From a virus, in the IMG/VR virus record IMGVR_UViG_3300032286_000195, positions 1 to 22,000 of that record: a DNA stretch of 22,000 nucleotides, one strand, 5' to 3'. The notes under the pieces are model-generated. The model did not search any database. It was given only the letters and a program-made list of their open reading frames with translations, and was not told the DNA's origin. Below, one piece after another: positions 1-22,000 of the stretch. Positions within the stretch are counted from its first letter, which is position 1, and the number at the start of each line of letters is the position of its first letter. Both the position numbers and the translations under genes were made by a program.

Positions 1-1143
1 ACCAATGAGTCTAAATTAACTATGTTTACTTCTCCTGTATTTACTGGAAATGTTCCATCAGTTACTAGTTCTACTGCTACAAGTATAAAAAAAGACACTG
101 ATTTAGTAAATAGAGCGTATGTAGACTCTCAAATTATTAATTTAACTTGGAGATTATCGGTAGTTTGTGCAACTACAGGAGCATTAGGTACATCTAATAA
201 CCTTGTTGGTGGTACCATCACTACTACCTATAGTCCTGGAACTTTAGGTGTCGGGGCAACACTTACTATTGCTACATCAACTAACTGGACTGCAATTACT
301 ATTGATGAGTATTCTTTTGCTGTTGGTGACCGTATTCTTATTAAAAATCAAGATAATGCTGCATACAATGGAATATATACAGCTACAACTAAAGGTACTA
401 TAGGGACTACAACTTCGTTTGTATTTACCAGAGCTACTGATTCTGATTTGGCTTCAGAGAACTTTTCAAGGCATGCAGTTTATGTTGAAAATGGGAGCGT
501 TAGTTCTGATTATGCAGATAGAGCTTTTACAAATATTGTAGATGGCGATGTAGTAATGGGAACTACTCCTCTCACATATACTCTTGCAGCTGGTCTTTCC
601 AATGCAATTGTTCCACTTACAGGAGTGGGTAGAATTCCTTATACAAATTCCAGTAGAGGACTCACATACACCATTCCATACTCAAATACTGGGCAAGTTT
701 TAAAAAGTGGTTTTGCTGCTCCAGGTGCAAATTTAGGTTGGTATGATCCATACCCATTTGATATGAAAACTGGAAAAATTGCTTCTACTGACTGGGATAA
801 TGTTGCTAGTCCAGTGGGTGAAGCAGTTGTTACTTTTGCTGTTTCTTTTCCAACTGGCGTTGTGCCTAACATAACATTGAGTCCAATATCAGTTGGGAAC
901 GATTTAATTATAGTTACTTTAAAAGAAGCACCTACAAACACTGGATTTACAGTTGTGGCTAGAAGATTGCAAGCATCTGCAACTGTTACTACTGCTGGTG
1001 GTACTCAAATTGCTAGAACAGGTGCTGATTTAATTTCTAATGCTAATCCGACTACCTATTGGACAGCAGTCCAAGGAGCAAGGATAGTAGGTACTCCATC
1101 CAGCACTAATGATGGTAGAACAGACTACGAAACCGTGGGTTAA
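1..1143 (+). CDS. Tail fibre / receptor-binding-like structural protein, 5' partial
   Basis: The reading frame is open from the left edge. The first in-frame ATG is at 22, but seven sense codons precede it, so the true start is probably outside the window. Near the N-terminus, 'DLVNRAYVDSQI' is the linker typical of phage tail-fibre proteins, where an 'xYVD' segment joins repeated modules. A Thr/Gly/Ser-rich beta module follows, with 'VGDRILIKNQ...NGIYT' and then 'RATDSD...VYVENG'. This is the same module order seen in many phage fibre or baseplate-appendage proteins. The C-terminal half (about residue 200 on) looks like a compact beta domain and has no recognised catalytic motif. The likely role is an extended virion appendage contacting the host surface. 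The exact subtype (long fibre, side fibre or baseplate protein) cannot be told. There is no signal peptide or membrane segment. Translation stops at TAA 1141-1143. Confidence 0.75.
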   Translation, partial: TNESKLTMFTSPVFTGNVPSVTSSTATSIKKDTDLVNRAYVDSQIINLTWRLSVVCATTGALGTSNNLVGGTITTTYSPGTLGVGATLTIATSTNWTAITIDEYSFAVGDRILIKNQDNAAYNGIYTATTKGTIGTTTSFVFTRATDSDLASENFSRHAVYVENGSVSSDYADRAFTNIVDGDVVMGTTPLTYTLAAGLSNAIVPLTGVGRIPYTNSSRGLTYTIPYSNTGQVLKSGFAAPGANLGWYDPYPFDMKTGKIASTDWDNVASPVGEAVVTFAVSFPTGVVPNITLSPISVGNDLIIVTLKEAPTNTGFTVVARRLQASATVTTAGGTQIARTGADLISNANPTTYWTAVQGARIVGTPSSTNDGRTDYETVG

Positions 1144-2054: not shown

Positions 2055-3872
2055 ATGACAAACTTAGACGGTGTAAAACTAGAACTTGTCGACAATGTCG
2101 ATAAAGCTCGCGAGTTTATATCTTGGTTAGGCGAACGCCGACCACACAATGCAATATCCATTGATACTGAAACTGGCGAACTTCCAGGCGGTAAACGTGA
2201 TGATGCTCTATCTCCTTGGCATGGCCAGCTAAGATTAGTTCAGGTTGGCGATGGTATGACTGGGTGGGCTATCCCCTGGGGCGAGTGGTCTGGTGTATTT
2301 TACGAGGCAATGGACAAGTTTGACGGCCCGATTGTCTGCCACAACATTGCCTTTGAGGCTCGCTGGTTTGAGATTCAGTCCCGTTGGAAGATGCCTTGGC
2401 ATCGAGTCCACGACACCATGATTATGGCTCACCTTATTGACCCTCTAGGTTCAGGTGCTTTGAAAAACTTAACTTCTCGTTATGTAGATGCTAATGCTGC
2501 TCGTATGCAGCAAGTTTTAGATGATGGCATGGTAAAAAATGGCTGGACCTGGGGAACTGTGCCTATTAACTATCAGCCTTACTGGGCTTATGGTGCCCTG
2601 GACCCTGTTCTTACAATGCGTCTTTGGGAGATCTTCTGGGAAAAGTGTGGTCCTGGAAAGCCTTACAGCCAGGCTTACGAACTTGAGATGAACACTCGTC
2701 GCATTGTTACTCGCATGGAACTCAACGGTGCTCGTCTAGACCTCGACTACTCAAGAAAAAAGCATCAGGAACTAGTTGACTATACAGAGCAGGTCAAAGA
2801 CTGGGCAAAGAATACTTACGGGTTTTCTATTACAAGTAACGCTCAGCTAGTTCGCCAGTTTGAAGCACTTGGTGCAATGATTACTGAGACAACTCCGTCT
2901 GGAGCTAAGTCAGCCTCTGCAGACCAACTCAAGCTGCTGCTGCGTGACGGTACTCCGGAAGTGCAACAACTTGCAGACGTAGCTCTTAAGCAACGTAAGG
3001 CAGATAAGCTTGCATCTACCTACTTCTCAAACTTTATCAACGACAACGTAAACGGCTTTGTTCACCCATCTGTCAAAACTCTTGGTGCTCGTACTGGACG
3101 TATGTCTATCCAAAACCCGGCTCTACAGACCCTTCCTAAGGGTGACGACACTGTTCGTCGTGCTTTCTTGCCTAAAGACGACAAGCACGTAATCATTACT
3201 TCGGACCTTGACCAAGTTGAGTTCCGTATGTTTGCGTCGCTGTCTCAGGACCCAAACCTAATCAACCTATTTAATATGGCAGACGCGACTGGCTCAGATC
3301 CATTTACTGAGATTGGTCGTGAAATCTATGGTGACCCGACAATGCAAAAGTCAGACAAGAGACGTGGTCTAATCAAGGGCGTAGTTTATGGACGCCTCTA
3401 TGGCGCAGGTGTAGCTAAGCAGGCTTTGACTGCTGGTGTTCCAGAAGACCAGATGCGTGCGGTATCTAACGAATTTGATAAGCGTTTCCCGGGTATGCAA
3501 CTGTTCCAAAAAAGAGTTGAAGATACTGGTATGCGTCGTCTTCGTTCTGAGGGTCAAGGTTATGTAAATACTTGGACTGGACGTCGACTACCTTGTGACG
3601 AAGACCGAGTCTATGTTTTAACTAATTATTTAATACAAGGTGGTGCTGCTGAAATATTTAAATCCAATCTCGTAAGACTAGATCAGGCAGATTTAACAGA
3701 ACTCCTTATTGTTCCGGTGCATGACGAGATTGTTTTAAACGCCCCTAAAGATAGCGTAGAAGATATTAAACAAATTGTACGTGAATGTATGACCACTACT
3801 GAGGGATGGCAGGTACCACTAACTGCCGATGTAGATGGCGGATTTACTAACTGGGGGGGTAAATACTTATAG
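2055..3872 (+). CDS. polA: Family A DNA polymerase with 3'-5' exonuclease domain
   Basis: The 605-aa product is a phage-type Pol I lacking a 5'-3' exonuclease domain. The proofreading domain comes first: ExoI (SIDTETGELP, D37 and E39), ExoII (HNIAFEARW, about 96-104, with Glu where Asp is usual) and ExoIII (YGALDP, D183). The polymerase domain follows: RTGRMS (346-351), motif A (SDLDQVEFR, D384), motif B (R437...K441...Y445-G...Y449-G) and motif C (VPVHDE, 553-558). Aligned to E. coli Pol I, Y445 falls at position 762, where E. coli has Phe. It should be the replicative polymerase, working with the primase-helicase at 14293. The start is ATG 2055, with a modest GAAAG upstream. Base composition changes near 3610, so that the last 85 or so codons are more AT-rich than the rest, next to an inserted homing endonuclease gene. 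Confidence 0.96.
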   Translation: MTNLDGVKLELVDNVDKAREFISWLGERRPHNAISIDTETGELPGGKRDDALSPWHGQLRLVQVGDGMTGWAIPWGEWSGVFYEAMDKFDGPIVCHNIAFEARWFEIQSRWKMPWHRVHDTMIMAHLIDPLGSGALKNLTSRYVDANAARMQQVLDDGMVKNGWTWGTVPINYQPYWAYGALDPVLTMRLWEIFWEKCGPGKPYSQAYELEMNTRRIVTRMELNGARLDLDYSRKKHQELVDYTEQVKDWAKNTYGFSITSNAQLVRQFEALGAMITETTPSGAKSASADQLKLLLRDGTPEVQQLADVALKQRKADKLASTYFSNFINDNVNGFVHPSVKTLGARTGRMSIQNPALQTLPKGDDTVRRAFLPKDDKHVIITSDLDQVEFRMFASLSQDPNLINLFNMADATGSDPFTEIGREIYGDPTMQKSDKRRGLIKGVVYGRLYGAGVAKQALTAGVPEDQMRAVSNEFDKRFPGMQLFQKRVEDTGMRRLRSEGQGYVNTWTGRRLPCDEDRVYVLTNYLIQGGAAEIFKSNLVRLDQADLTELLIVPVHDEIVLNAPKDSVEDIKQIVRECMTTTEGWQVPLTADVDGGFTNWGGKYL

Positions 3873-3901: not shown

Positions 3902-4564
3902 ATGGCCAGTTTATATACGCTTTCATTAAAATTAAACATAGAAAATATACGCTACGTAGGTATAACTAAATATGATGATGTAGAAATAAGACTTAAAGCT
4001 CACAAAGAAAAAGTAGGTAGAGTAAATAGACCAGTCACCGATTGGATCGCTAAATATGGTAATGATGTAGTAATTATAAAATTAGCAGGTGATTTATCCT
4101 GGGATGAAGCCTGTCTGCAAGAGATAGAGTTAATAGCTAAACTAAAAAATGAAGGGTTTAATCTTTTAAATATGACATCAGGTGGAGACGGGTCGCTTGG
4201 TAAAAAAGACTCCGAGGAAACTAAAAGAAAAAAATCAATAAGTAGTACTGGAAGAGTATTTTCAGATGAGTCCAAGAAAAAAATTTCTATAGCAAATACA
4301 GGGAAAAAAAGATCGGATGAGTCAAAAAAGAAAATGTCTGATGCAAGAAAAGGTAAACCATTATCACCAGAGCATGTAGAAAAAATTAGAAAAAAATTAA
4401 TCGGGAGAAAGTGTAAACCAGAGACAGCTAAAAAAATATCGGACGCTCAAAAAGGTAAAAAATTGTCTGATAATCATGTAGCTAATTTAAAAATAGCGCA
4501 AGCAAAACGTAGAGAACGAGAAAGACAGGAGAAGCAAGACAGACAAGATGAAAAATTTAACTAA
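3902..4564 (+). CDS. Free-standing GIY-YIG homing endonuclease with six NUMOD3-like repeats
   Basis: Residues 1-90 fit a GIY-YIG nuclease: YTL (5-7) stands for GIY, YVG (18-20) for YIG, the expected catalytic Arg is R30 in 'EIRLKAH', and the conserved Glu lies in 'LQEIELI' (E74/E76). From residue 99 the protein is a Lys/Ser-rich array of six repeats with an exact 17-residue period. Gly recurs at 100, 117, 134, 151, 168 and 185, each followed by a basic patch, then 'SxE(S/T/H)xKKxS'. This is the NUMOD3 type of DNA-binding repeat found in GIY-YIG and HNH homing enzymes. The gene sits between polA and the RuvC-like gene, is much more AT-rich than both (28% GC in a 60-base sample), has no clear Shine-Dalgarno, and its end overlaps the next gene by 17 bases. 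It looks like a selfish insertion. It is free-standing, since no intron or intein was seen in the polymerase. Confidence 0.9.
   Translation: MASLYTLSLKLNIENIRYVGITKYDDVEIRLKAHKEKVGRVNRPVTDWIAKYGNDVVIIKLAGDLSWDEACLQEIELIAKLKNEGFNLLNMTSGGDGSLGKKDSEETKRKKSISSTGRVFSDESKKKISIANTGKKRSDESKKKMSDARKGKPLSPEHVEKIRKKLIGRKCKPETAKKISDAQKGKKLSDNHVANLKIAQAKRRERERQEKQDRQDEKFN
4196..4501 (+). repeat. Six tandem 51-bp (17-residue) repeats in the homing endonuclease
   Basis: Codons 99-200 hold six units of exactly 17 residues, each starting with a residue-Gly-basic step (LGKK, TGRV, TGKK, KGKP, IGRK, KGKK) and ending in a short amphipathic helix. Conservation is visible at protein level; at DNA level the units are A-rich and diverged. 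No unit is truncated or frameshifted. Confidence 0.85.
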
Positions 4565-5102: not shown

Positions 5103-6899
5103 ATGACTGTATTTGTAGACCTCGACCCAGCGGGCGGGCACATCGTCATTAACGCTGAATGGCGTTTAAAAGAACTATGTAAAAGCCTCCCTGGAGCTTC
5201 CTGGGACACCAAAACTTCTGTATGGCGTATTCCGCTTTCATGGGCTGGATGCTTAGCTCTACGCTCTACTTTCCGTGACAGCCTAGTTATTGGAGACGGT
5301 CTAGCTGCCTGGGCAGCCACTGAAAAACTTACTCGCATTGACCCGTCAAATGCTCTTCGTGATGTTGACATCTCAGAGATCGGTGACCAAGACTTGTTCC
5401 CCCACCAGCGTGCTGGAGTTGAGTTCTTAGCTACTGCTAAGCGTGCTTTACTTGCTGATGAACCTGGACTTGGTAAAACTGCTCAAGCTATTCGTGCTCT
5501 AAAGAAGATGCATGATAATGGCGAGCAGGTTTTTCCTGCACTAGTTATCTGCCCAAACACTCTTAAGAAGAACTGGGAGCGTGAGTTTGATAGATGGTGG
5601 CCAGGAGTAAATGTAACTGTAATTAATGGCTCTGCCGTTAAGCGTCGTGCTCAGTTTGACCAGCAATCTGACGTAATTGTTATTAACTGGGAATCATTAC
5701 GTACTCATTCAAGACTTTCTTCTTATGGCTCTATTGCTCTTGCCCGTTGTATTGATTGCAAAGGTCACGACTCTAGAATCACTCCTGCCCGTTGTGAGGT
5801 ACATACTCGTGAACTAAACGAGATTGACTTCAAAGCTGTTATTGCTGACGAGATCCACCGCTCAAAAGACCCAAAGTCTAAGCAGACTCGTGCTCTCTGG
5901 GCAGCTACCGGAGATGCCAACATTCGTTACGCTCTTACTGGTACTCCAATTGCTAACAATGTGATTGATCTTTGGCCTATTCTTCACTGGTTAGAGCCAA
6001 AAGAGTGGCCTAGCAAGACTAAGTGGATTGACCGCATGATTGACACAATGATTAATGCTTTTGGTGGAATGATGGTTCTTGGAGTGAAGGCTCACATGGA
6101 AGAAGAGTTCTATGCGGCAATCAATCCTCGTATGCGTCGCATGCTCAAGTCTCGCGTGCTTCCTTGGCTACCAGAAGTTATTACTGAACGTCGTGATGTC
6201 GAGATGGGTGCAAAGCAGGCCAAGGCTTACAAGCAGATGCTAGAGCATATGATTACTCTTTTAGAGACTGGAGAGTCTTTAATTGCATCTAATCCGTTGA
6301 CTCAGACTCTTCGTCTTCTACAGTTTGCTAGCTCCTATGCTGATGTATCTGTAGACGAGACTGGAAAAGAAAAAGTTACTTTGTCAGACCCCTCCTGTAA
6401 AGTAGATGCTCTGATGGATGATATTAAAAATGGTGACTTTGGTGAAGACTCTGTAGCAGTCTGTGCAGTGTCTCGTCAGCTCATTGAAATCCTAAGTGCT
6501 CGCTTAACTAAAGAGGGTATCGAACATGGTTTGATTACTGGTGCTCAGGATCAGGATGAACGTCAGAAGTCTATTGATGACTTCCAGTCTGGTAAGACTA
6601 AGTGGATTCTTTTCACTGCTCAAGCTGGTGGTGTTGGTGTCACCTTGACAACAGCACGAAGACTTGTTATGCTACAAAGACCGTGGTCTCTTGTTGATTA
6701 CAAACAAGCACTCGACCGTGTACACCGCATTGGCTCTGAGATCCACGATTGCGTGATTATCACTGACTATGTAACAGAAGGAACCGTCGAAGAGCGTGTA
6801 ATTGAAGCTCTAGACACAAAATCAGATAATTTTGAGCAGATAGTTCGAGACAAAGAACAACTACTCAAAATGCTCAAAGAAAGTAAGGCAACTCTATAA
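5103..6899 (+). CDS. SNF2/SMARCAL1-like DNA helicase (SF2)
   Basis: Start chosen at ATG 5103 (598 aa), five bases after AAGGA (5093-5097); the in-frame ATG at 5073 lies in the promoter. The N-terminal 60 residues (SWDTKTSVWRIPLSW) resemble the HARP-like segment of annealing helicases. Helicase motifs are clear: LFPHQRAGVEFL (Q-like), Walker A DEPGLGKT (119-126), DEIH (249-252), LTGTP (278-282), then lobe 2 with 'FTAQAGGVGVTLTTA' and 'QALDRVHRIGS'. Between motifs Ia and II is an insertion with C216, C219, C231 and H234 in zinc-finger spacing. SNF2-type phage helicases are thought to remodel forks or anneal strands. The stop overlaps the next start by one base, so it is coupled to the nuclease, annealase and ssDNA-binding genes downstream. 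Confidence 0.92.
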   Translation: MTVFVDLDPAGGHIVINAEWRLKELCKSLPGASWDTKTSVWRIPLSWAGCLALRSTFRDSLVIGDGLAAWAATEKLTRIDPSNALRDVDISEIGDQDLFPHQRAGVEFLATAKRALLADEPGLGKTAQAIRALKKMHDNGEQVFPALVICPNTLKKNWEREFDRWWPGVNVTVINGSAVKRRAQFDQQSDVIVINWESLRTHSRLSSYGSIALARCIDCKGHDSRITPARCEVHTRELNEIDFKAVIADEIHRSKDPKSKQTRALWAATGDANIRYALTGTPIANNVIDLWPILHWLEPKEWPSKTKWIDRMIDTMINAFGGMMVLGVKAHMEEEFYAAINPRMRRMLKSRVLPWLPEVITERRDVEMGAKQAKAYKQMLEHMITLLETGESLIASNPLTQTLRLLQFASSYADVSVDETGKEKVTLSDPSCKVDALMDDIKNGDFGEDSVAVCAVSRQLIEILSARLTKEGIEHGLITGAQDQDERQKSIDDFQSGKTKWILFTAQAGGVGVTLTTARRLVMLQRPWSLVDYKQALDRVHRIGSEIHDCVIITDYVTEGTVEERVIEALDTKSDNFEQIVRDKEQLLKMLKESKATL

Positions 6900-14292: not shown

Positions 14293-16890
14293 ATGAGCAA
14301 CTGGGAATCTGCTGGCAACGGCCGCCTACCTAAAGGTGCAGAATGGTACGCTAAGCAGGGTTGGGTGCTACTTCCTGTTCATGGTATTGAAGATGGTCGC
14401 TGTACATGTAATAAGCCTCACGGGGACTCTAAAGACGTAGGTAAGCACCCAGCTCTTTATAACTGGAATACCGAAGCTAGCTCAGACCCTACTCAGGTGG
14501 GGATTTGGTGGGAGCAAAATCCTGAATATAACATTGGTGTTTTTTGTAAGCCATCTGGCTTTTTTGCAATTGATATTGACCCACGTTCGGGCGGTGATGA
14601 GTCTTTTGAGATTCTAGAATCCCGTGCTGAAGGAAACCTACCTCCAACCGTTGAAGCCATAACTGGTGAATACAACGTTAAGGGCAAGGTAGTTCGTGGA
14701 CGTCACCTTATCTATCGCTGCGACCCAAATGAAAAATTCCTAGGCAACCTATCTAAAGAGGGTCTAAAAGGAATTGATATCAAGCACAACGGATATATTC
14801 TTATTGCTCCATCTCGTCACTTCTCTGGTACATCATATGACTGGAAGCCTGGTCATGCTCCATGGGAAATGGAGATTGCTGACGCCCCGGAAGACCTACT
14901 ATCTGTACTCCGAGCCAAAGCACTTCGTCAGTCCAGCGGATCTTCATACAAAGATGGCAACTGGGATTGGGTATCTGAACTAGAGTTTGCTGGCGAACGT
15001 GTTGACATTGAAAAAGTTCTTGAAGAAGGAATTGACGAGGGCCATCGAGCAGTAGAGGTTTATCGACTTGCCTGTGCACTTGCAAACAAGTTTGGAACTA
15101 GTTCCGAGGCTCGTTTGATGATTGAGTCAATGATGATTCGTTTTAACCACGAAATGGTTAGACCTCCGATGGAACTTGAGGGCACTAACTCACTTCTAAT
15201 GCATGTTCACCGTGCTATTGACTTTGTTGGTTCTAGTCCAAAGATTGATCGTTCTTGGCCAGGGCTTACTGAGTGGGTTGCAAACCAAGGTCAGGAGTGG
15301 GCTAATAACTCGTCTTCCAAGACTGCAACTTCCTATTCTCCTAATGTAGTTGGCACGTCAGTGACTCGACTAATCGAAGATGGTATGTCTATATCTGATG
15401 CTTCTAGTAACGGAAACTTAGACCTACCTAAAGACTTAGATGCTATTTCCGAAGAAGATGGTGGTCGTCCAGGTTGGCGTACACTTACTGATGTTGGAAA
15501 TGGTCGTCGGTTAGTTGACACTTATGGTTCCGCTATTCGATATACCCCTGGCCTTGGTTGGTTCCACTGGGATGGGACATACTGGCGTCCAGATGCCGAA
15601 GACCTAGAACTTCAAGAACTTGCTAAGCGTATTGCCCCTGTAATTGCTAGCGAGGTAGGAAACTATGGTGAAGACGAGCAGCAGAAAAAACAAGATGTAA
15701 TTAAGTGGGCTAATCAAGCTAAATCAAATAGCCGAATTAATAACATGATTACCAGTTGCGTCTCTGACCCTCGTGTTGTTGTTGGTGTAGAACGCTGGGA
15801 TGGCGATGAAAATCTGCTTGGTGTTATGAATGGTGTAATCGACCTAAAGACTGGTGAACTATTACGTGGTAAGCCAGATCTATATATTACAAAGCGTGCT
15901 CCGGTTTCTTACACCCCTGGACTTCGCAACGTACGCTGGGAGCAGTTTATTGATTATGCAACTGGTGGAGATAAAGAACTTCAAGACTGGATTCAGAGAG
16001 CAGTTGGATACACGCTAACTGGTTTGAATAATCAAGACATTATGTTCTTAGTTTATGGTCCTCCTGGTTCTGGTAAAAATACTTTTGTTGAGACTATTGT
16101 CGAAGCTCTTGGTACAGAGCAGTATGCTGGAGCACTCTCTTCTGAAGTTCTTGCTGCCGGAGATGGTAGATCCAGCTCTTCTGATCAGTACTACTTAGCC
16201 GAACTTCGTGGTAAGCGTATGATTTGGGTAGACGAGTTGCCTGAGACTGAGCGTCTAAAAGAAAATAAGATTAAGCAACTTACTGGTTCATCCACTATTC
16301 AAGCACGCTCTCCTGGCGAGAAGCCATTTACATTCCGTGCTCAAGGAAAGTTGTGGGTCACAACTAACCACCGTCCTATGATTACTGATGATGCCATGTG
16401 GCGTCGTATTCGTCCTATTCCATGGACAAATGTCGCGGAGAATCCAGACCCGGCTTTAAAGGCTTATCTAGCTGACCCTGAGGGTGGGCTTCCTGCAGTT
16501 CTTGCTTGGGCCGTTGAGGGTGCAATTAAATACTTAGGTTCATCTGCTCGTGACCCACTTGGCTGGTGCTCTGCTGTCCGTGAAGCAGCTGATATTTACC
16601 GTAAGAATGAAGACCGTATTGGCCTATTCCTAGATGAAGAAACACGCGAAACAGAGGGTGCTTCGGTACTTGTAAAGCAGTTATACTCCATCTATAGAAT
16701 GTGGTCAGATGAACGCGGTGAGCGTCCTATGACTCAGATTGCATTCCAGCGCAAGTTGACTGACCGTGGTCTACCTATTGTCGGTCAGGGCTCTAGAGCC
16801 GAGGTTAGAAACCGTACTCAGATGCCAAGAGTGGTAGAAACTGCTGAAGTTGATTGGTCTATGGCAACACGTTTTGCACGCAACATATAG
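14293..16890 (+). CDS. Prim-pol primase / SF3 helicase (D5-like)
   Basis: The 865-aa product joins two activities. Residues about 14-210 form a bifunctional primase-polymerase domain: 'GAEWYAKQGWVLLPV', a Cys/His patch (C37, C39, H43), 'FFAIDIDP' with catalytic D94 and D96, 'GRHLIYRC' (H138) and 'GYILIAPSRH'. The C-terminal part is a superfamily 3 helicase with the D5-type lead-in 'LLGVMNGVIDLKTGEL', Walker A GPPGSGKNT (589-597), Walker B 'MIWVDELPE' (D647-E648) and motif C/sensor 'LWVTTNHRP' (N692). A winged-helix-like C-terminus follows. It should unwind and prime phage DNA for the family A polymerase at 2055. It is transcribed alone from the promoter at 14232 and ends before the hairpin at 16940. 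Length is typical for fused phage/plasmid primases. Confidence 0.93.
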   Translation: MSNWESAGNGRLPKGAEWYAKQGWVLLPVHGIEDGRCTCNKPHGDSKDVGKHPALYNWNTEASSDPTQVGIWWEQNPEYNIGVFCKPSGFFAIDIDPRSGGDESFEILESRAEGNLPPTVEAITGEYNVKGKVVRGRHLIYRCDPNEKFLGNLSKEGLKGIDIKHNGYILIAPSRHFSGTSYDWKPGHAPWEMEIADAPEDLLSVLRAKALRQSSGSSYKDGNWDWVSELEFAGERVDIEKVLEEGIDEGHRAVEVYRLACALANKFGTSSEARLMIESMMIRFNHEMVRPPMELEGTNSLLMHVHRAIDFVGSSPKIDRSWPGLTEWVANQGQEWANNSSSKTATSYSPNVVGTSVTRLIEDGMSISDASSNGNLDLPKDLDAISEEDGGRPGWRTLTDVGNGRRLVDTYGSAIRYTPGLGWFHWDGTYWRPDAEDLELQELAKRIAPVIASEVGNYGEDEQQKKQDVIKWANQAKSNSRINNMITSCVSDPRVVVGVERWDGDENLLGVMNGVIDLKTGELLRGKPDLYITKRAPVSYTPGLRNVRWEQFIDYATGGDKELQDWIQRAVGYTLTGLNNQDIMFLVYGPPGSGKNTFVETIVEALGTEQYAGALSSEVLAAGDGRSSSSDQYYLAELRGKRMIWVDELPETERLKENKIKQLTGSSTIQARSPGEKPFTFRAQGKLWVTTNHRPMITDDAMWRRIRPIPWTNVAENPDPALKAYLADPEGGLPAVLAWAVEGAIKYLGSSARDPLGWCSAVREAADIYRKNEDRIGLFLDEETRETEGASVLVKQLYSIYRMWSDERGERPMTQIAFQRKLTDRGLPIVGQGSRAEVRNRTQMPRVVETAEVDWSMATRFARNI

Positions 16891-16999: not shown

Positions 17000-17740
17000 A
17001 TGCACGTAAGAATAGCAACCCCTATGTATGGAGGAAACTGTAAAGGTATCTATGTAGATAGTATTTTAGCTCTCACCTTTGCACTAGCCAGAGCCGGGCA
17101 TGAAGTTTCTTTCTCCAAGATATATAACGAAAGTCTTATTACTAGAGCAAGAAATAATCTTGTTTATGAATTTTTAAATAGTACTGCTGATGTACTTTTA
17201 TTTGTAGATGCTGATGAGGGTTTTAGTGCTCCAGATGTTCTTAAAATGCTTGAATTAGACAAAGATATTATTGGTGGAATTTATCCGATGAAAAATATTA
17301 ACTGGGAAAATATTAAAAAAGCTGTATTAGCTGGAAAAGAAAATTTAACGGAGTATTCTGGATTTTTTGCACTAAACCTACTCCCAGGTGAGACTCAATT
17401 TCAAGTAAATCAGCCAGTTGAAGTTACAGAGGTTGCCACTGGTTTAATGGCTATTAAGCGTTCTGTTTTTGAAAAAATGGAAGAGCACTGTCCAAAATAT
17501 GCACTAAATAATAGCACTGCTAATTTTGAATTTGACAAAATGGTTACAGAGTTTTTTACAACTAGTATTACTCCCGAAGGTATTTTACTGTCAGAAGATT
17601 ATCACTTTTGTCGCAAGTGGAGATCCTTAGGTGGTCAAGTATATGCTGCACCATGGGTTGCCGTTGATCATGCTGGAGAATACGTCTTTAGTGGTCGTTT
17701 TTCTTCTTATGCAGAGTTAAACGCTACTAAAATTGAATAA
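17000..17740 (+). CDS. GT-A fold glycosyltransferase
   Basis: ATG 17000 follows AAGGA at the usual spacing. The 246-aa product starts 'MHVRIATPMYGGNCKG' and carries 'SLITRARNNLV' (45-55), then 'VLLFVDADEGF', with the metal- and nucleotide-sugar-binding D70-A-D72. Later comes 'SEDYHFCRKWRSLGGQVYAAPWV' (split, about 198-220), with the acidic catalytic-base region E199-D200 and H224 in 'AVDHAG'. This is the arrangement of small retaining or inverting GT-A enzymes of the GT2/Anp1-like type common in phages. The sugar and acceptor are unknown. It is the first gene of a four-gene AT-rich cassette lying between fibre loci, which favours glycosylation of virion or surface structures. The stop lies one base before the next ATG. 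Confidence 0.8.
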   Translation: MHVRIATPMYGGNCKGIYVDSILALTFALARAGHEVSFSKIYNESLITRARNNLVYEFLNSTADVLLFVDADEGFSAPDVLKMLELDKDIIGGIYPMKNINWENIKKAVLAGKENLTEYSGFFALNLLPGETQFQVNQPVEVTEVATGLMAIKRSVFEKMEEHCPKYALNNSTANFEFDKMVTEFFTTSITPEGILLSEDYHFCRKWRSLGGQVYAAPWVAVDHAGEYVFSGRFSSYAELNATKIE

Positions 17741-17741
17741 T

Positions 17742-18767
17742 ATGATCTTAGATAATTTAGTTCAAAGATCAGTATCTCAGGGTGGTAGATTAGCTCCGAT
17801 AGTTATATCTAACGAGCTAACTTCTGGTACAGGGTTGATGAATCCGTCTATTTTTGTTAATTCTAAAAATGAGATTTTTATAAATCTACGCCACGTAAAC
17901 TACACGCTATATCACTCGGAGAACCAGCAACGCTTTATCAGCCCGTGGGGGCCGATGGCCTACCTACATCCGGAATCAGATTTAGCACTTAGAACAACTA
18001 ATTACATTTGTAAGTTAGATGAGAATCTATTAATAAGTGGTTACGGGGTAGTTGATACATCGGAATTTGATGTCACTCCGCTCTGGGAATTTACTGGAGA
18101 AGAAGATTGCCGTTTAGTTGAATGGGACGGTAGATACTACATAATTGGTGTAAGACGCGATACCACCACAAATGGTGAAGGTCGTATGGAACTTAGTGAA
18201 ATCACAATTAATGAAGAAACCTGGGAAGTAAAAGAAATTTCTAGGATACGTATTCCTGCTCCAGGAGAAAATCTTTCATACTGTGAAAAAAATTGGATGC
18301 CAATTCTTGATAAGCCTTTTCACTTTGTAAAATGGACTTCTCCCACAGAAGTTGTTAGAACTTATCCCGAGCTTCCTGCTCGTTGTGAGCAAGTATCTCT
18401 AAGTCAAGGATTAGTGACGTCTAAGGACCAGCGGGGTGGTTCTCAAGTGGTTAGGTGGGGAGATGTCTATATTGCTATAACACACGAAGTGGATCTTTTT
18501 AAAAACTATTTAAATCAAAAAGATGGAATTTATCGACATCGCTTAGTTGTTTGGGACGAGCAGTTTAATCTCATTGGACTCTCTCCAGAACCACTAACAT
18601 TTTTAGAAGGCCGAGTGGAGTTTGCAGCCGGAGCTGCTAAGTATGGCGATGATCTCTTGGTTAGCTTTGGTTTCCAGGACAATGCATCTTATGTGCTACA
18701 AGTTCCTAAAGTAGTAGTAGAAGAATTAATTTCTGATGCTTTACTGACTACTAGAGTGGGAGGATAG
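17742..18767 (+). CDS. GH130/GH43-like five-bladed beta-propeller protein
   Basis: Start taken at ATG 17742 (341 aa); a TTG at 17733 is an alternative. The sequence shows repeated beta-sheet blades with the marks of mannoside-phosphorylase-like propellers: 'LMNPSIF' near the N-terminus, 'EEDCRLVEWDGRYYIIGVRRD' (split, about 118-139) in place of the usual 'EDPR', then 'CEKNWMPI' and 'GGSQVVRWGDVYIAITHE'. In GH130 the EDPR-like blade supplies catalytic and phosphate-binding residues; here the Pro is replaced by Cys, so activity is open. There is no signal peptide. It may process or recognise a mannose-type glycan made or targeted with the neighbouring glycosyltransferase. It is a confident propeller by pattern, with only moderate confidence in GH130 membership. 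Confidence 0.6.
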   Translation: MILDNLVQRSVSQGGRLAPIVISNELTSGTGLMNPSIFVNSKNEIFINLRHVNYTLYHSENQQRFISPWGPMAYLHPESDLALRTTNYICKLDENLLISGYGVVDTSEFDVTPLWEFTGEEDCRLVEWDGRYYIIGVRRDTTTNGEGRMELSEITINEETWEVKEISRIRIPAPGENLSYCEKNWMPILDKPFHFVKWTSPTEVVRTYPELPARCEQVSLSQGLVTSKDQRGGSQVVRWGDVYIAITHEVDLFKNYLNQKDGIYRHRLVVWDEQFNLIGLSPEPLTFLEGRVEFAAGAAKYGDDLLVSFGFQDNASYVLQVPKVVVEELISDALLTTRVGG

Positions 18768-18773
18768 TAGATA

Positions 18774-19508
18774 ATGTACGAAGAGTACTGGAGACAAAAC
18801 ACTTATGAAATTGCAGATAGAGTTTCAAATATAAAAAATCTTTTAAAAACTTCTACTCCTTTAAATACTAAATTTACACGTAAAGGTAGCACTGGAGATG
18901 GTGGTTACGTGATTGCAGATGATATTAAATCTAATGATTATCTTGTCTCTTTTGGTATTGACAATAATGTTGATTTTGAAAAATCAATAAGTGAGTATGG
19001 CTGCAAGTCAGATTTATACGATAATTCAATTGACAAACTGCCATCTCATGTAGAAAACTCGACATTTTTTAAAAAAACTATTGGAACACATGAAAATGAA
19101 ATTTCTTTAGAGGAATCCATAAAAGATATAACTAAAGATATTATTTTAAAAGTAGATATTGAAGGTTCAGAATGGGACATATTCTCTCAAGTTTCTTTAG
19201 AGGATCTGTCTAAATGCAGACAAATACTTATAGAAGTGCATTGGATGCAAAATCTAAATAACAAAGATTTTTACAATAAAGCATTAACTGCGTTTACTAA
19301 ACTACGTAGCACCCATACCCCTGTATTAGTACACGCTAATAATAACGTTCCACTTATGATTATAGGTAATTCTCCTGTTCCTATGGTTTTTGAAATTTTA
19401 TATCTTAGAACTGTTGATTACACTTTTGCAAAAAGTGAAGATCCATTTGACGGGTTAGTTGTTAAAAATGATGTAAATTTTCCAGAGATAGGTCTTAGTT
19501 TTCCGTGA
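18774..19508 (+). CDS. FkbM-like SAM-dependent methyltransferase
   Basis: ATG 18774 follows GGGAGGA. The 244-aa product has 'GSTGDGGYVIADD' (38-50), 'DYLVSFGIDNNVDFE' (55-69), an acidic strand end 'SDLYDNSID' (79-87) and 'DIILKVDIEGSEWDIF' (122-137). This KxDIEGSEW motif is the hallmark of FkbM/Methyltransf_21-22 family enzymes, which methylate hydroxyl groups of sugars or small molecules. Within the cassette it most likely O-methylates the sugar added by the glycosyltransferase. The start lies six bases after the preceding stop and the last four bases overlap the next gene (GTGA), so it belongs to the same transcript. Confidence 0.75.
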   Translation: MYEEYWRQNTYEIADRVSNIKNLLKTSTPLNTKFTRKGSTGDGGYVIADDIKSNDYLVSFGIDNNVDFEKSISEYGCKSDLYDNSIDKLPSHVENSTFFKKTIGTHENEISLEESIKDITKDIILKVDIEGSEWDIFSQVSLEDLSKCRQILIEVHWMQNLNNKDFYNKALTAFTKLRSTHTPVLVHANNNVPLMIIGNSPVPMVFEILYLRTVDYTFAKSEDPFDGLVVKNDVNFPEIGLSFP

Positions 19509-20083
19509 GTGTAGATAATATTAAAAATTTAGTAATTAAACTTGCTGAAAACCCGTTTGATGCTTCGATTAATTTTGAATTAGCGTTAGAGTATGACTCT
19601 ATGAATCAGCCAGCTTCTGCTGTTTCTTTCTATTTACGTGCTATTGAATACGGTTATAAAACTAATTCATTGATTGTTTATACTTCGCTTCTTAGAATGT
19701 CTTTATGTTTTGAAAGACAAAAAGATAGAAAGCATACTGTATCTAATTCAATACTTCAAGCAATTGCTTATCTACCTAAAAGACCGGAAGCATACTTTTT
19801 ATTATCAAAAATTTATGAAAAAGATCAGAATTGGCAAGAATGTTACACTCAAGCAGCTATTGGACTTTCAACCTTAGATAGTCCTTTAGTTAAACTTCCA
19901 GCGTTTATTGATGGCTACCACGGGGATTACGCTTTAGAGTTTCAGCAAGCCGTTAGTGCTTGGTGGATTGGCAGAAAAGAAGAGAGCATTGAACTTCTTA
20001 AAAATCTAAGTGCTAGACCTGAGCTAAGTCTTTTATACAAGGACGCTGTAGAAAATAACCTAAAAAACTTAAAGATTTATTAA
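19505..20083 (+). CDS. TPR-repeat protein (192 aa)
   Basis: The start is GTG 19505, overlapping the methyltransferase stop by four bases (GTGA), a standard coupling arrangement. The product is all-helical with TPR signatures: 'NFELALEYDSMNQPASAVSFYLRAIEYG' (about 23-50) and 'AYFLLSKIYEKDQNWQECYTQAAIGLSTL' (about 95-123). Another likely pair follows at 'AVSAWWIGRKEESIELLKNLS'. TPR domains are protein scaffolds and often accompany glycosyltransferases that modify many sites on one protein. Here it may dock the cassette enzymes or hold the acceptor. It has no catalytic motif and no signal peptide. Confidence 0.75.
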   Translation: MSVDNIKNLVIKLAENPFDASINFELALEYDSMNQPASAVSFYLRAIEYGYKTNSLIVYTSLLRMSLCFERQKDRKHTVSNSILQAIAYLPKRPEAYFLLSKIYEKDQNWQECYTQAAIGLSTLDSPLVKLPAFIDGYHGDYALEFQQAVSAWWIGRKEESIELLKNLSARPELSLLYKDAVENNLKNLKIY

Positions 20084-20150: not shown

Positions 20151-20636
20151 TTACGGTAAAGCTGTTGCACCTAATACTACTGAAACATCATCAAGGTTGA
20201 ACTCACCGATAAAGATGTCTGTTGGATAAATTGCGAGTACTATCTGTGTTGAAGTTGCTAAAACATTCTCAAATTTAAAATACTGCCAATCAGTAGATGT
20301 ACCTAAAAGACTTGTTGTCGTTGAACTGCCTAAAAAGTCAATTTGGTAGGTTCTTGATAAATCTGCATTTCTTAGCCAAAAGGATAAAGAATATCTTTGT
20401 CCAATAGTCAAACTTGTATCTTGAATATAGTACGCATATGGGCTGTTTTCTCCATCAAAAGAAGTATTTAAACTTGCTGGACTTGACCTAAAAACACTTG
20501 TATCTCTAACAGGATTGGTTGAATTTATCCAACCATTAAGGTTTACAGAAAAACTTGGATTAGTGACAAGGTTTGTCGGGGCAGGTGTAGACCCAGCCTT
20601 CACACTGCCAATCAATCCTGCAACAACACCAGACAT
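20151..20636 (-). CDS. Jelly-roll carbohydrate-binding-like virion protein (161 aa)
   Basis: The start ATG (20636-20634) overlaps the stop of the upstream fibre gene by one base (TAATG on the minus strand). After a short Gly/Ala-rich start, 'NLVTNPSFSVNLNGW' (about 22-36) opens a beta-jelly-roll of the CBM4/9-like type often seen in phage appendages. It continues through 'YYIQDTSLTIGQRYSLSFWLRNAD' (69-92) and 'WQYFKFENVLATSTQIVLAIYP', and closes with 'FNLDDVSVVLG' (145-155). This fold binds glycans in many proteins, so a host-surface-binding tip is a fair inference. Coupling to the fibre gene suggests the two products assemble together. Confidence 0.72.
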   Translation of the reverse strand: MSGVVAGLIGSVKAGSTPAPTNLVTNPSFSVNLNGWINSTNPVRDTSVFRSSPASLNTSFDGENSPYAYYIQDTSLTIGQRYSLSFWLRNADLSRTYQIDFLGSSTTTSLLGTSTDWQYFKFENVLATSTQIVLAIYPTDIFIGEFNLDDVSVVLGATALP

Positions 20637-22000
20637 TATGTAAGACCGTTACCGCTAATAATCCAAGAAGCAGAAGTAATTTTTACTGCGGTAGCCATGC
20701 CGTAAGCAGCTAAAGTTCTAGTTCCTGTAGTTCCGGGACCTGCTAAATACATAGTGTCAGTCGTAATTGCAATGCTAACAGATACGGTTGCTAAATTTAT
20801 AAACGTAATTGTTGTACCAATTTGGTAACCAACGCTACCACTTGCAGGAATAGTTATTGTTTGAGAAGCGGTGCTTCCAGAGAAATAAATATGTTTACCT
20901 GCGTCGGCGGCTACTAATGTGTATGAAGCTGTTTTAGCGTTTTGCGGTAGACCCATGTAGCCAGCGGTAGTTGCAGAGGTAGCAGCAACAGCTGCTGCTG
21001 GAGTAAGAGTTGTGTTACCGTTTAGGGTTATATTGTTTGTTGCACCTGATACTGCAGAGCCGATGTTAATTGCTGTAGTTGAACCAGACACACCAGCTGT
21101 TCCGATGTTTACGGTTTTTGTGTTACCGCTAAGAGTTGCTCCAGTAATTAAGTTGGCTGTAGCGTTGGCTGTAGTTCCGGCAATCGTTAAAGTAGTTGCC
21201 GCAGCAGCCATTGTAATAGTTGTTGGAGTTGCTAGTAGAGCAAGAGTTGCAGCGTTTGAGTTTATTGCTGGAGAGTTTAAGTTTATTGAGGTTGAAGATA
21301 TAAGGTTTGCTGTAGCAGTGTTGGTAGCATTTCCGATTGCAACAGCAGAGGCGTTTGTTCCACCGATAGTAATTGTTCCAAAGGCTCCAGTACCTGGCTT
21401 GGCACCGACATCCACGGTGATGTTTCCGGATGCGCCAGTGCTTGAACCTCCGGAGCCCGTTGAAATTGTTAGATTTCCTGAGCTTCCAGCCGTTCCCGCA
21501 CTGGCTGCACCCGTGGTAAGTGTAATAGCACCTGAAGTGTTTGTACCGCCAGCGGCTCCAACGGCTCCGGTAGATAAAGTGAGCGCACCTGAAGTACCGT
21601 TTGAAGCTGTAGCAGTACCAGTTGACAAAGTTACCGCACCAGAGGTGGCTGCTGAGTTTCCAGAACTAATAAGAACCGTACCCGTTGTACCAGAAGTAGT
21701 GGTTGTTCCAGTTAAAATGTCGATAGCACCAGAGTTAGCTGATGTTGTATTTGTCGTAAAGAAGTCTAGGTCTGTGGTTCCAGTTCCACCTGTGATAGAT
21801 GTGATACCAGTTAGTGCTTGGTTAGCACTTGATACTTGTGTCGCTTGTGTGCCTATAAATGCACTTGTACCGACGGTACCTTGTATTCCCTGTGTTCCTT
21901 GTGTTCCTGTTCCAGTAATACCCTGAGCACCTGTACTACCTTGCGCACCTTGCACACCATTTGTTCCTTGTGCGCCTGTTGTACCTTGTGTGCCTTGCGC
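20636..22000 (-). CDS. Collagen-like / low-complexity tail fibre, 5' partial
   Basis: The frame is open to the right edge, so the N-terminus is missing; the first in-window start-like codon (GTG at 21955) is not credible because collagen-like repeats already run through it. In protein order there are three parts. First come Gly-X-Y triplets (AQG, TQG, STG types) up to about 21869. Then come seven short beta repeats of the form SG-xx-LSTG (21733-21404). A Thr/Ala/Asn-rich region follows (NIGTAGVSG, NITLNGNTT). The C-terminal domain contains 'HIYFSGSTASQTITIP' and 'GTRTLAAYGMATAVKITSASW', a module seen at the ends of many phage fibre proteins. No catalytic residues are visible. It is probably a trimeric virion fibre, with the following jelly-roll protein as partner. 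Confidence 0.85.
   Translation of the reverse strand, partial: AQGTQGTTGAQGTNGVQGAQGSTGAQGITGTGTQGTQGIQGTVGTSAFIGTQATQVSSANQALTGITSITGGTGTTDLDFFTTNTTSANSGAIDILTGTTTTSGTTGTVLISSGNSAATSGAVTLSTGTATASNGTSGALTLSTGAVGAAGGTNTSGAITLTTGAASAGTAGSSGNLTISTGSGGSSTGASGNITVDVGAKPGTGAFGTITIGGTNASAVAIGNATNTATANLISSTSINLNSPAINSNAATLALLATPTTITMAAAATTLTIAGTTANATANLITGATLSGNTKTVNIGTAGVSGSTTAINIGSAVSGATNNITLNGNTTLTPAAAVAATSATTAGYMGLPQNAKTASYTLVAADAGKHIYFSGSTASQTITIPASGSVGYQIGTTITFINLATVSVSIAITTDTMYLAGPGTTGTRTLAAYGMATAVKITSASWIISGNGLT
21404..21733 (-). repeat. Seven SG-xx-LSTG beta repeats in the fibre
   Basis: Units such as SGAIDILTG, SGAVTLSTG, SGALTLSTG, SGAITLTTG, SGNLTISTG and SGNITVDVG recur every 14-19 residues. 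Alternating small and hydrophobic residues at regular distance suggest a triple-stranded or beta-helical shaft. Confidence 0.8.
21869..22000 (-). repeat. Collagen-like Gly-X-Y repeats, running off the right edge
   Basis: Reading leftward from the edge, triplets with Gly every third residue (mostly QGT, QGA, TGA) continue to about 21869, with one phase break at 'TGTGTQG'. Thr and Gln dominate the X and Y positions and Pro is absent, as in many phage collagen-like stalks. Confidence 0.85.

Follow-up and report, generated by a model that had tools for sequence, protein, structure and literature searches.

Why does a freshwater bacterial virus carry, next to its fibre genes, a compact row of genes for a glycosyltransferase-like enzyme, a beta-propeller, a methyltransferase and a tetratricopeptide repeat (TPR) protein, and do the four form a functional unit? 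The genes lie on a 22 kb viral contig (IMG/VR record IMGVR_UViG_3300032286_000195, positions 1-22,000), the whole of which is referred to here as the window (Table 1). The DNA polymerase of the window is 77% identical to its counterpart in the Actinomycetia phage DSL-LC01, while the primase shares 50-65% identity with those of DSL-LC01 and of large Microbacterium phages, and judging from this kinship the host is likely to be an aquatic actinobacterium. A near-DNA search of phages with the window returned no match, and PADLOC found no match to a defence system.

Table 1. Genes of the four-gene region and its surroundings in the 22 kb window.
Feature	Positions	Strand	Basis or remark
Left structural-like gene	1-1143		16 kb from the four genes
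Primase-helicase gene, directly upstream of the GT-A gene	14293-16890		phrog_1156, E 7e-117
GT-A glycosyltransferase-like gene, 246 aa, phrog_1574	17000-17740	+	ORF call, AF2 fold, PHROG
Five-bladed propeller gene, 341 aa from ATG	17742-18767 (TTG 17733 alternative)	+	AF2 fold, profile comparison
FkbM-type SAM methyltransferase gene (Methyltransf_21), 244 aa	18774-19508	+	Pfam PF05050
TPR protein gene, 192 aa	19505-20083	+	TPR model matches
CBM_4_9-like / tail or head-spike fibre protein gene	20151-20636	-	PF02018, PHROG, NCBIfam
Thr/Ser-rich fibre gene, collagen-like QGxQG repeats	20636-22000, runs past window end	-	sequence, composition

An initial annotation, made from the DNA alone, described the four genes as a tightly packed glycan cassette between two fibre loci. 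The packing is borne out by the ORF calls, all four genes being read from the same strand with small gaps or overlaps. The propeller gene overlaps the GT-A gene by eight bases if it starts at the TTG and is separated from it by a single base if it starts at the ATG; the latter is taken as the start because the closest relatives align from about ATG 17742 and not from TTG 17733. A gap of six bases then separates the propeller and FkbM genes, and the FkbM and TPR genes overlap by four. The location between fibre loci holds for the right side, where two structural-like genes lie on the opposite strand, but not for the left, where the primase-helicase gene adjoins and a block of replication genes intervenes before the left structural-like gene. 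The GC content of the four-gene region is lower than that of the primase gene (0.30-0.40 vs 0.46). The identities proposed for the four products (GT-A enzyme, GH130-like propeller, FkbM-like methyltransferase and TPR protein) are supported by fold, profile and Pfam matches.

The AF2 model of the second product (pLDDT 85.4, pTM 0.87) is a five-bladed beta-propeller. Its top PDB matches in Foldseek are of the GH130 type (TM 0.50-0.57, E down to 1.9e-9), and the best 41 comprise GH130-type enzymes, putative glycosidases of the same fold and Leishmania GT108, at TM 0.45-0.57 and 9-16% identity. Compared by hhalign with a profile of 34 GH130 sequences from bacterial genomes, the propeller profile gives E 1.3e-5 across 255 columns against E 0.03 or worse for shuffled, reversed and unrelated control alignments, all of these being single-comparison values. 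The Pfam test for GH130 (PF04041) failed at 12.5 bits, below a cut-off of 26 that no protein in the window reaches and that the best relative, the propeller of Synechococcus phage S-SCSM2R, misses with 21.4 bits. None of the GT108 PDB chains (6q50, 6q4x and others) was matched by the propeller profile at E<=1, and searches of PDB chain sequences with the single sequence or the profile yielded nothing relevant.

The putative active site is conserved. N34, R50, E121-D122, R124 and D313 are kept in 167 or 168 of 168 relatives, and in the profile alignment N34, R50, E121, D122 and D313 fall on GH130 residues with published roles, which include the catalytic Asp of the EDxR motif, the sugar-site Asn, an Arg and a C-terminal Asp (PMC4599007). 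K183-N184 and H248, invariant or nearly so among the 168 propeller sequences, were paired by eye with the KN and YHG motifs of GH130, the hhalign alignment shifting locally around K183. GH130 phosphorylases have three basic residues that bind phosphate; we tentatively place the Lys and His of these motifs at the phosphate site of GH130 enzymes. Because the fold and active site are GH130-like, yet the PF04041 cut-off is missed and the GT108 chains are unmatched, we call the propeller a new family within the GH130/GT108 fold superfamily. The propeller has at least 599 relatives in IMG/VR, and a scan of genome contigs gave matches in five MAG contigs only, so there is no clear cellular family. 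A viral fold search finds the propeller in giant-virus proteins (best TM 0.6-0.75), some of which bear the annotation fucosyltransferase, LicD or WcaK-like pyruvyl transferase.

The constant companion of the propeller is the TPR protein. Among unique loci drawn from the best 80 of each scan, and hence not a random sample, the TPR gene directly follows the propeller in 66 of 66 (own-type propeller scan), 53 of 53 (own-type TPR scan) and 57 of 66 (cyanophage-type scan); these counts rely on simple ORF calls and leave out duplicates and loci without room downstream, and the first two sets share contigs and are not to be summed. TPR genes without a propeller, seen in an early count, were traced to contig ends and the ORF-overlap filter. 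The TPR protein of the window has hits to several TPR models, the best at E 4e-5 and each short of its own Pfam cut-off, and its profile picks up designed TPR proteins at E 4e-12. The pair is also present in S-SCSM2R (recorded host strain WH7803), and the annotated relatives include two Synechococcus phages.

Fusions join the same partners in several orders. Propeller and TPR form a single ORF in L297 (528 aa; 11-18% identity to the rows of the TPR alignment, with no conserved columns in common) and, in reverse order, in L332 and its near-copies (538 aa); the propeller is fused to FkbM in L301 (526 aa), and the TPR protein to FkbM (L026 and others) or to Methyltransf_24 (the L072 group). These fusions argue for a physical or functional complex. 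The role of partner protein that the initial annotation gave to the TPR product thus gains support from both linkage and fusions.

The methyltransferase of the window scores 31.6 bits against PF05050 (E 2.2e-7, cut-off 22.7) and 19.4 against NCBIfam TIGR01444, below the cut-off of 37.7. Its gene is nearly private to this virus, the closest relative lying in locus L160 (82% identity, identical gene order) and a further enzyme of 50% identity being fused at the TPR C-terminus in L026. The gene has a GC content of 30% compared with 46% for the primase gene, which would fit a recent acquisition. Only the window and L160, among 116 loci, have a methyltransferase between propeller and TPR. The METHYLTRANSFERASE slot holds a separate methyltransferase, of FkbM or Methyltransf_24 type, right after the TPR gene in 72 of the 116 resolvable unique loci (one cut by a contig end); in 26 the TPR protein is long and carries an extra domain, and 16 have no adjoining methyltransferase, a class that takes in types missed by the profiles and in which many loci have a collagen-like fibre or portal-like gene in the next position. 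The long TPR proteins examined carry FkbM, Methyltransf_24, FkbM with radical SAM/SPASM, or a further region with DUF6445. Among the loci whose methyltransferase type the profiles miss, Pfam recognises an FkbM domain in L300 and L330, and L339 has a weak methyltransferase match. The TPR protein of S-SCSM2R contains DUF6445 and no Pfam methyltransferase; its middle region, from which the mtG profile was made, may not be a methyltransferase, which makes the methyltransferase counts for the cyanophage type less certain than for the own type.

Overall, a methyltransferase or extra C-terminal domain is present in about 86% of the resolvable loci, drawn from several families and arranged in three layouts. 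Across a tree built from 168 propellers, at least 17 switches of methyltransferase type are counted, ignoring loci without a recognised methyltransferase, and the closest kin of the window propeller (L160, L002, L003 and L164, in nested sets with 92-99% support) display three different arrangements. Comparative genomics thus strengthens the case, made in the initial annotation, for a methyltransferase as partner, without tying that role to one gene.

The GT-A gene behaves differently. The best fold matches of its AF2 model (pLDDT 91.8) include the collagen galactosyltransferase COLGALT1, Mnn9, polypeptide GalNAc-transferases and mimivirus R699, at TM at or below 0.5 and with GT-A similarity being generic, and the DxD motif (D70xD72) is invariant in 36 GT-A sequences. 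The module is absent from 44 of the 62 GT-A loci (best 80 loci of the scan), and the gene is a loose accessory that most module loci lack. We therefore rejected a fixed four-gene unit: the GT-A gene is mostly apart, the methyltransferase is swapped, and only propeller and TPR stay together. Independent scattering of the genes in relatives, which the initial annotation had named as evidence against its cassette, is what we find for the GT-A gene and clearly not for the propeller-TPR pair. The core unit is the propeller plus the TPR protein with exchangeable additions, and this core, with interchangeable methylating enzymes, is found in hundreds of aquatic virus contigs.

What might the module act on? 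Fibre genes neighbour many phage genes. Here, the fibre gene on the right encodes 22.5% Thr and 10.6% Ser, in agreement with the Thr/Ser-richness noted initially, with the collagen-like QGxQG repeats on its N-terminal side. The intervening CBM_4_9-like protein (PF02018, E 7.7e-5, slightly under the cut-off) matches minor tail and tail fibre proteins in PHROG and, under the cut-off, a spike-fibre domain in NCBIfam; it is a possible acceptor or a mere neighbour, and no enzyme of the module. Of 82 module loci, 69 have a collagen-like gene no more than 5 kb away, compared with 6 of 26 GT-only loci, a small control drawn from partly different phages. The share of bases in collagen-like genes is 0.25-0.35 inside 4.5 kb and drops to 0.075 beyond 8 kb. 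In phage DSL-LC02, collagen-like and tail-fibre genes flank the module. Taken together with the GT-A fold matches, this enrichment points to the fibre as the probable acceptor.

The computed picture is thus of a propeller with the GH130/GT108 fold and a conserved active site that is linked to a TPR protein, in most cases together with a swappable SAM methyltransferase, and lies near fibre genes. We consider it somewhat better than an even bet (a probability of roughly 0.55) that the phage encodes here a modular unit for building glycans, with which it decorates its own collagen-like fibre. The propeller, as a putative inverting glycosyltransferase akin to GT108, would extend a fibre glycan by a beta-linked sugar, which may be mannose donated by GDP-mannose, and FkbM would then cap the added sugar by O-methylating one of its hydroxyls. 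The TPR protein would hold together the propeller and the methyltransferase, and perhaps the fibre as well, in the way that O-GlcNAc transferase engages its substrate through its TPR part, while the GT-A enzyme, where present, could supply the initial sugar or an additional one. Repeated swapping of methyltransferases would alter the surface chemistry.

The same enzymes could instead modify a surface polysaccharide of the host (LPS, capsule or wall glycan) and thereby block superinfection or mask receptors. Cyanophage clusters that combine glycosyltransferases with O-methyltransferases have been read in this way (PMC7824862), and two of the annotated relatives are Synechococcus phages. We nevertheless regard this as rather unlikely: the neighbours are virion genes (fibre, portal, terminase-like) and collagen-like genes are enriched, the cassette of the window lacks nucleotide-sugar synthesis genes, and no lipid-carrier or membrane partner is seen among the annotated genes.

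A second question is the direction of the chemistry, since the propeller could instead work as a phosphorylase or hydrolase and serve to trim or recycle a glycan of the host or the phage. Its closest folds are GH130 phosphorylases and the mapped motif residues are kept; the retention of the Lys and His counts against a view of synthesis only. However, the partners are biosynthetic. Where no TPR gene follows a cyanophage-type propeller, the next gene encodes GT17, GT17-FkbM, FkbM, a weak methyltransferase match, a hexapeptide acyltransferase or a GT-like unassigned protein, and GT25 is found near the module in other loci. GT108 moreover demonstrates that the same propeller fold and site can carry out GDP-mannose-dependent mannosyl transfer (PMC8950772). 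Neighbours, fusion partners and giant-virus annotations favour a probably synthetic, GT108-like propeller over a trimming phosphorylase, and trimming or recycling seems to us quite improbable. Accordingly, of the initial proposal that the genes add, trim and O-methylate a sugar, glycan modification and methylation fare well, and trimming by the propeller does not.

Sugar hypermodification of phage DNA against restriction is very improbable: phage glycosyltransferases can act in this manner, according to the account of Pyle et al. 2024 relayed in PMC12619734, and some cyanophage-type relatives carry radical SAM or DUF6445 domains, but neither a base hydroxymethylase nor a thymidylate-synthase homologue was found among the scanned window genes, and the TPR-FkbM partners and the fibre-side site suit protein glycans better. 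That the genes are unrelated passengers in a variable region beside the fibre genes, as their lower GC content and the mostly solitary GT-A gene might hint, is scarcely credible and, for propeller and TPR, contradicted by a near-universal linkage and repeated independent fusions.

Decoration of the fibre is the reading we favour, and it can be taken a step further, albeit tentatively. The propeller may represent an undescribed viral glycosyltransferase family that forms, with the TPR protein, a plug-in assembly line for glycosylating and capping collagen-like phage fibres. Methyltransferase, radical-SAM, DUF6445 and GT17 domains could conceivably be swapped on and off this line, and the whole might parallel, in a bacterial virus, both the glycosylation of collagen and the logic of O-GlcNAc transferase. 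To our knowledge, phage virion glycosylation is limited to a few cases, all of which involve classical glycosyltransferases. No published description of a propeller-TPR module was found in the open-access papers searched, which is weak evidence of novelty. If fibre decoration is correct, sugar-coated and O-methylated fibres would be common in aquatic phages, given the number of propeller relatives in IMG/VR, which would bear on adsorption, host range and the stability of the particle, and the module would rest on an uncharacterised enzyme family.

How does the module compare with known systems? With the beta-mannoside phosphorylases and hydrolases of CAZy family GH130 it shares the five-bladed propeller, the EDxR Asp, the Asn, Arg and C-terminal Asp and the KN and YHG-type residues; unlike them, the window propeller stays below the PF04041 cut-off and is tied to a TPR protein, a methyltransferase and glycan-building genes. 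GT108, the dual glycosyltransferase-phosphorylases of Leishmania, has the same propeller fold but serves protozoan storage-polymer synthesis, and its PDB chains show no sequence match to the window propeller at E<=1. We know of no TPR or methyltransferase partner of GT108. In O-GlcNAc transferase (GT41), a TPR domain is tied to a sugar-transferring enzyme whose catalytic domain is GT-B; the analogy is one of working principle only, since here the TPR protein is separate or fused to a methyltransferase and the enzyme is a propeller. Nor do we know of a propeller-TPR unit in mycobacteriophages. Their glycosyltransferases glycosylate virion proteins, the targets named in the account relayed in PMC12619734 being capsid and tail tube (Freeman et al. 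2023). The cyanophage sugar-gene clusters resemble the module in combining glycosyltransferases with O-methyltransferases in aquatic phages, but they are large and include nucleotide-sugar enzymes, and their description mentions no propeller or FkbM, its sole reference to tetratricopeptides concerning RNA polymerase (PMC7824862). The giant viruses are different viruses with different enzymes, and the review of their glycosylation mentions neither propeller nor FkbM; the likeness lies in the glycosylation of collagen-like or fibril proteins by enzymes that the virus itself encodes, in O-methylated sugars and in the presence of the propeller fold, L230 glucosylating a collagen-like protein and methylated viosamine occurring in the glycans (PMC9614988).

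Propeller copies stand in tandem within a single cluster (loci L332-L335 and L338), and the second of them carries a TPR domain ahead of it in the same ORF. The tandem propellers are followed by methyltransferase-type and GT17+DUF6445 proteins, and the whole cluster possibly represents a multi-step assembly line. DUF6445 is also found on the TPR protein or on its neighbour in two Synechococcus phages (loci L082 and L083); in DSL-LC02 a radical SAM/SPASM domain is present as well. In several loci, L147 among them, genes for an ATP-grasp protein and for a glycosyltransferase of GT25-like type lie downstream of the module.

A propeller of a distant type, with 23% identity to that of the window, occurs without TPR in the Actinomycetia phage DSL-LC01 and two contigs (L084, L340 and L341), flanked by a methyltransferase-domain gene on one side and an Fpg/Nei-like DNA glycosylase gene on the other.

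Coordinates of the features discussed
Sequence	Positions	Feature
Window	2055-3872	DNA polymerase
Window	3902-4564	Homing-endonuclease-like gene; match to phrog_314 at E 7e-25
Window	14293-16890	Primase
L147	6524-8102	ATP-grasp protein and GT25-like glycosyltransferase
L084, L340, L341	~5900-6880	Distant propeller

The homing-endonuclease-like gene directly follows the DNA polymerase gene. In sequence comparisons the polymerase shares 77% identity with its DSL-LC01 counterpart, and the primase 50-65% with DSL-LC01 and large Microbacterium phages, similarities that point to an aquatic actinobacterium as the probable host.
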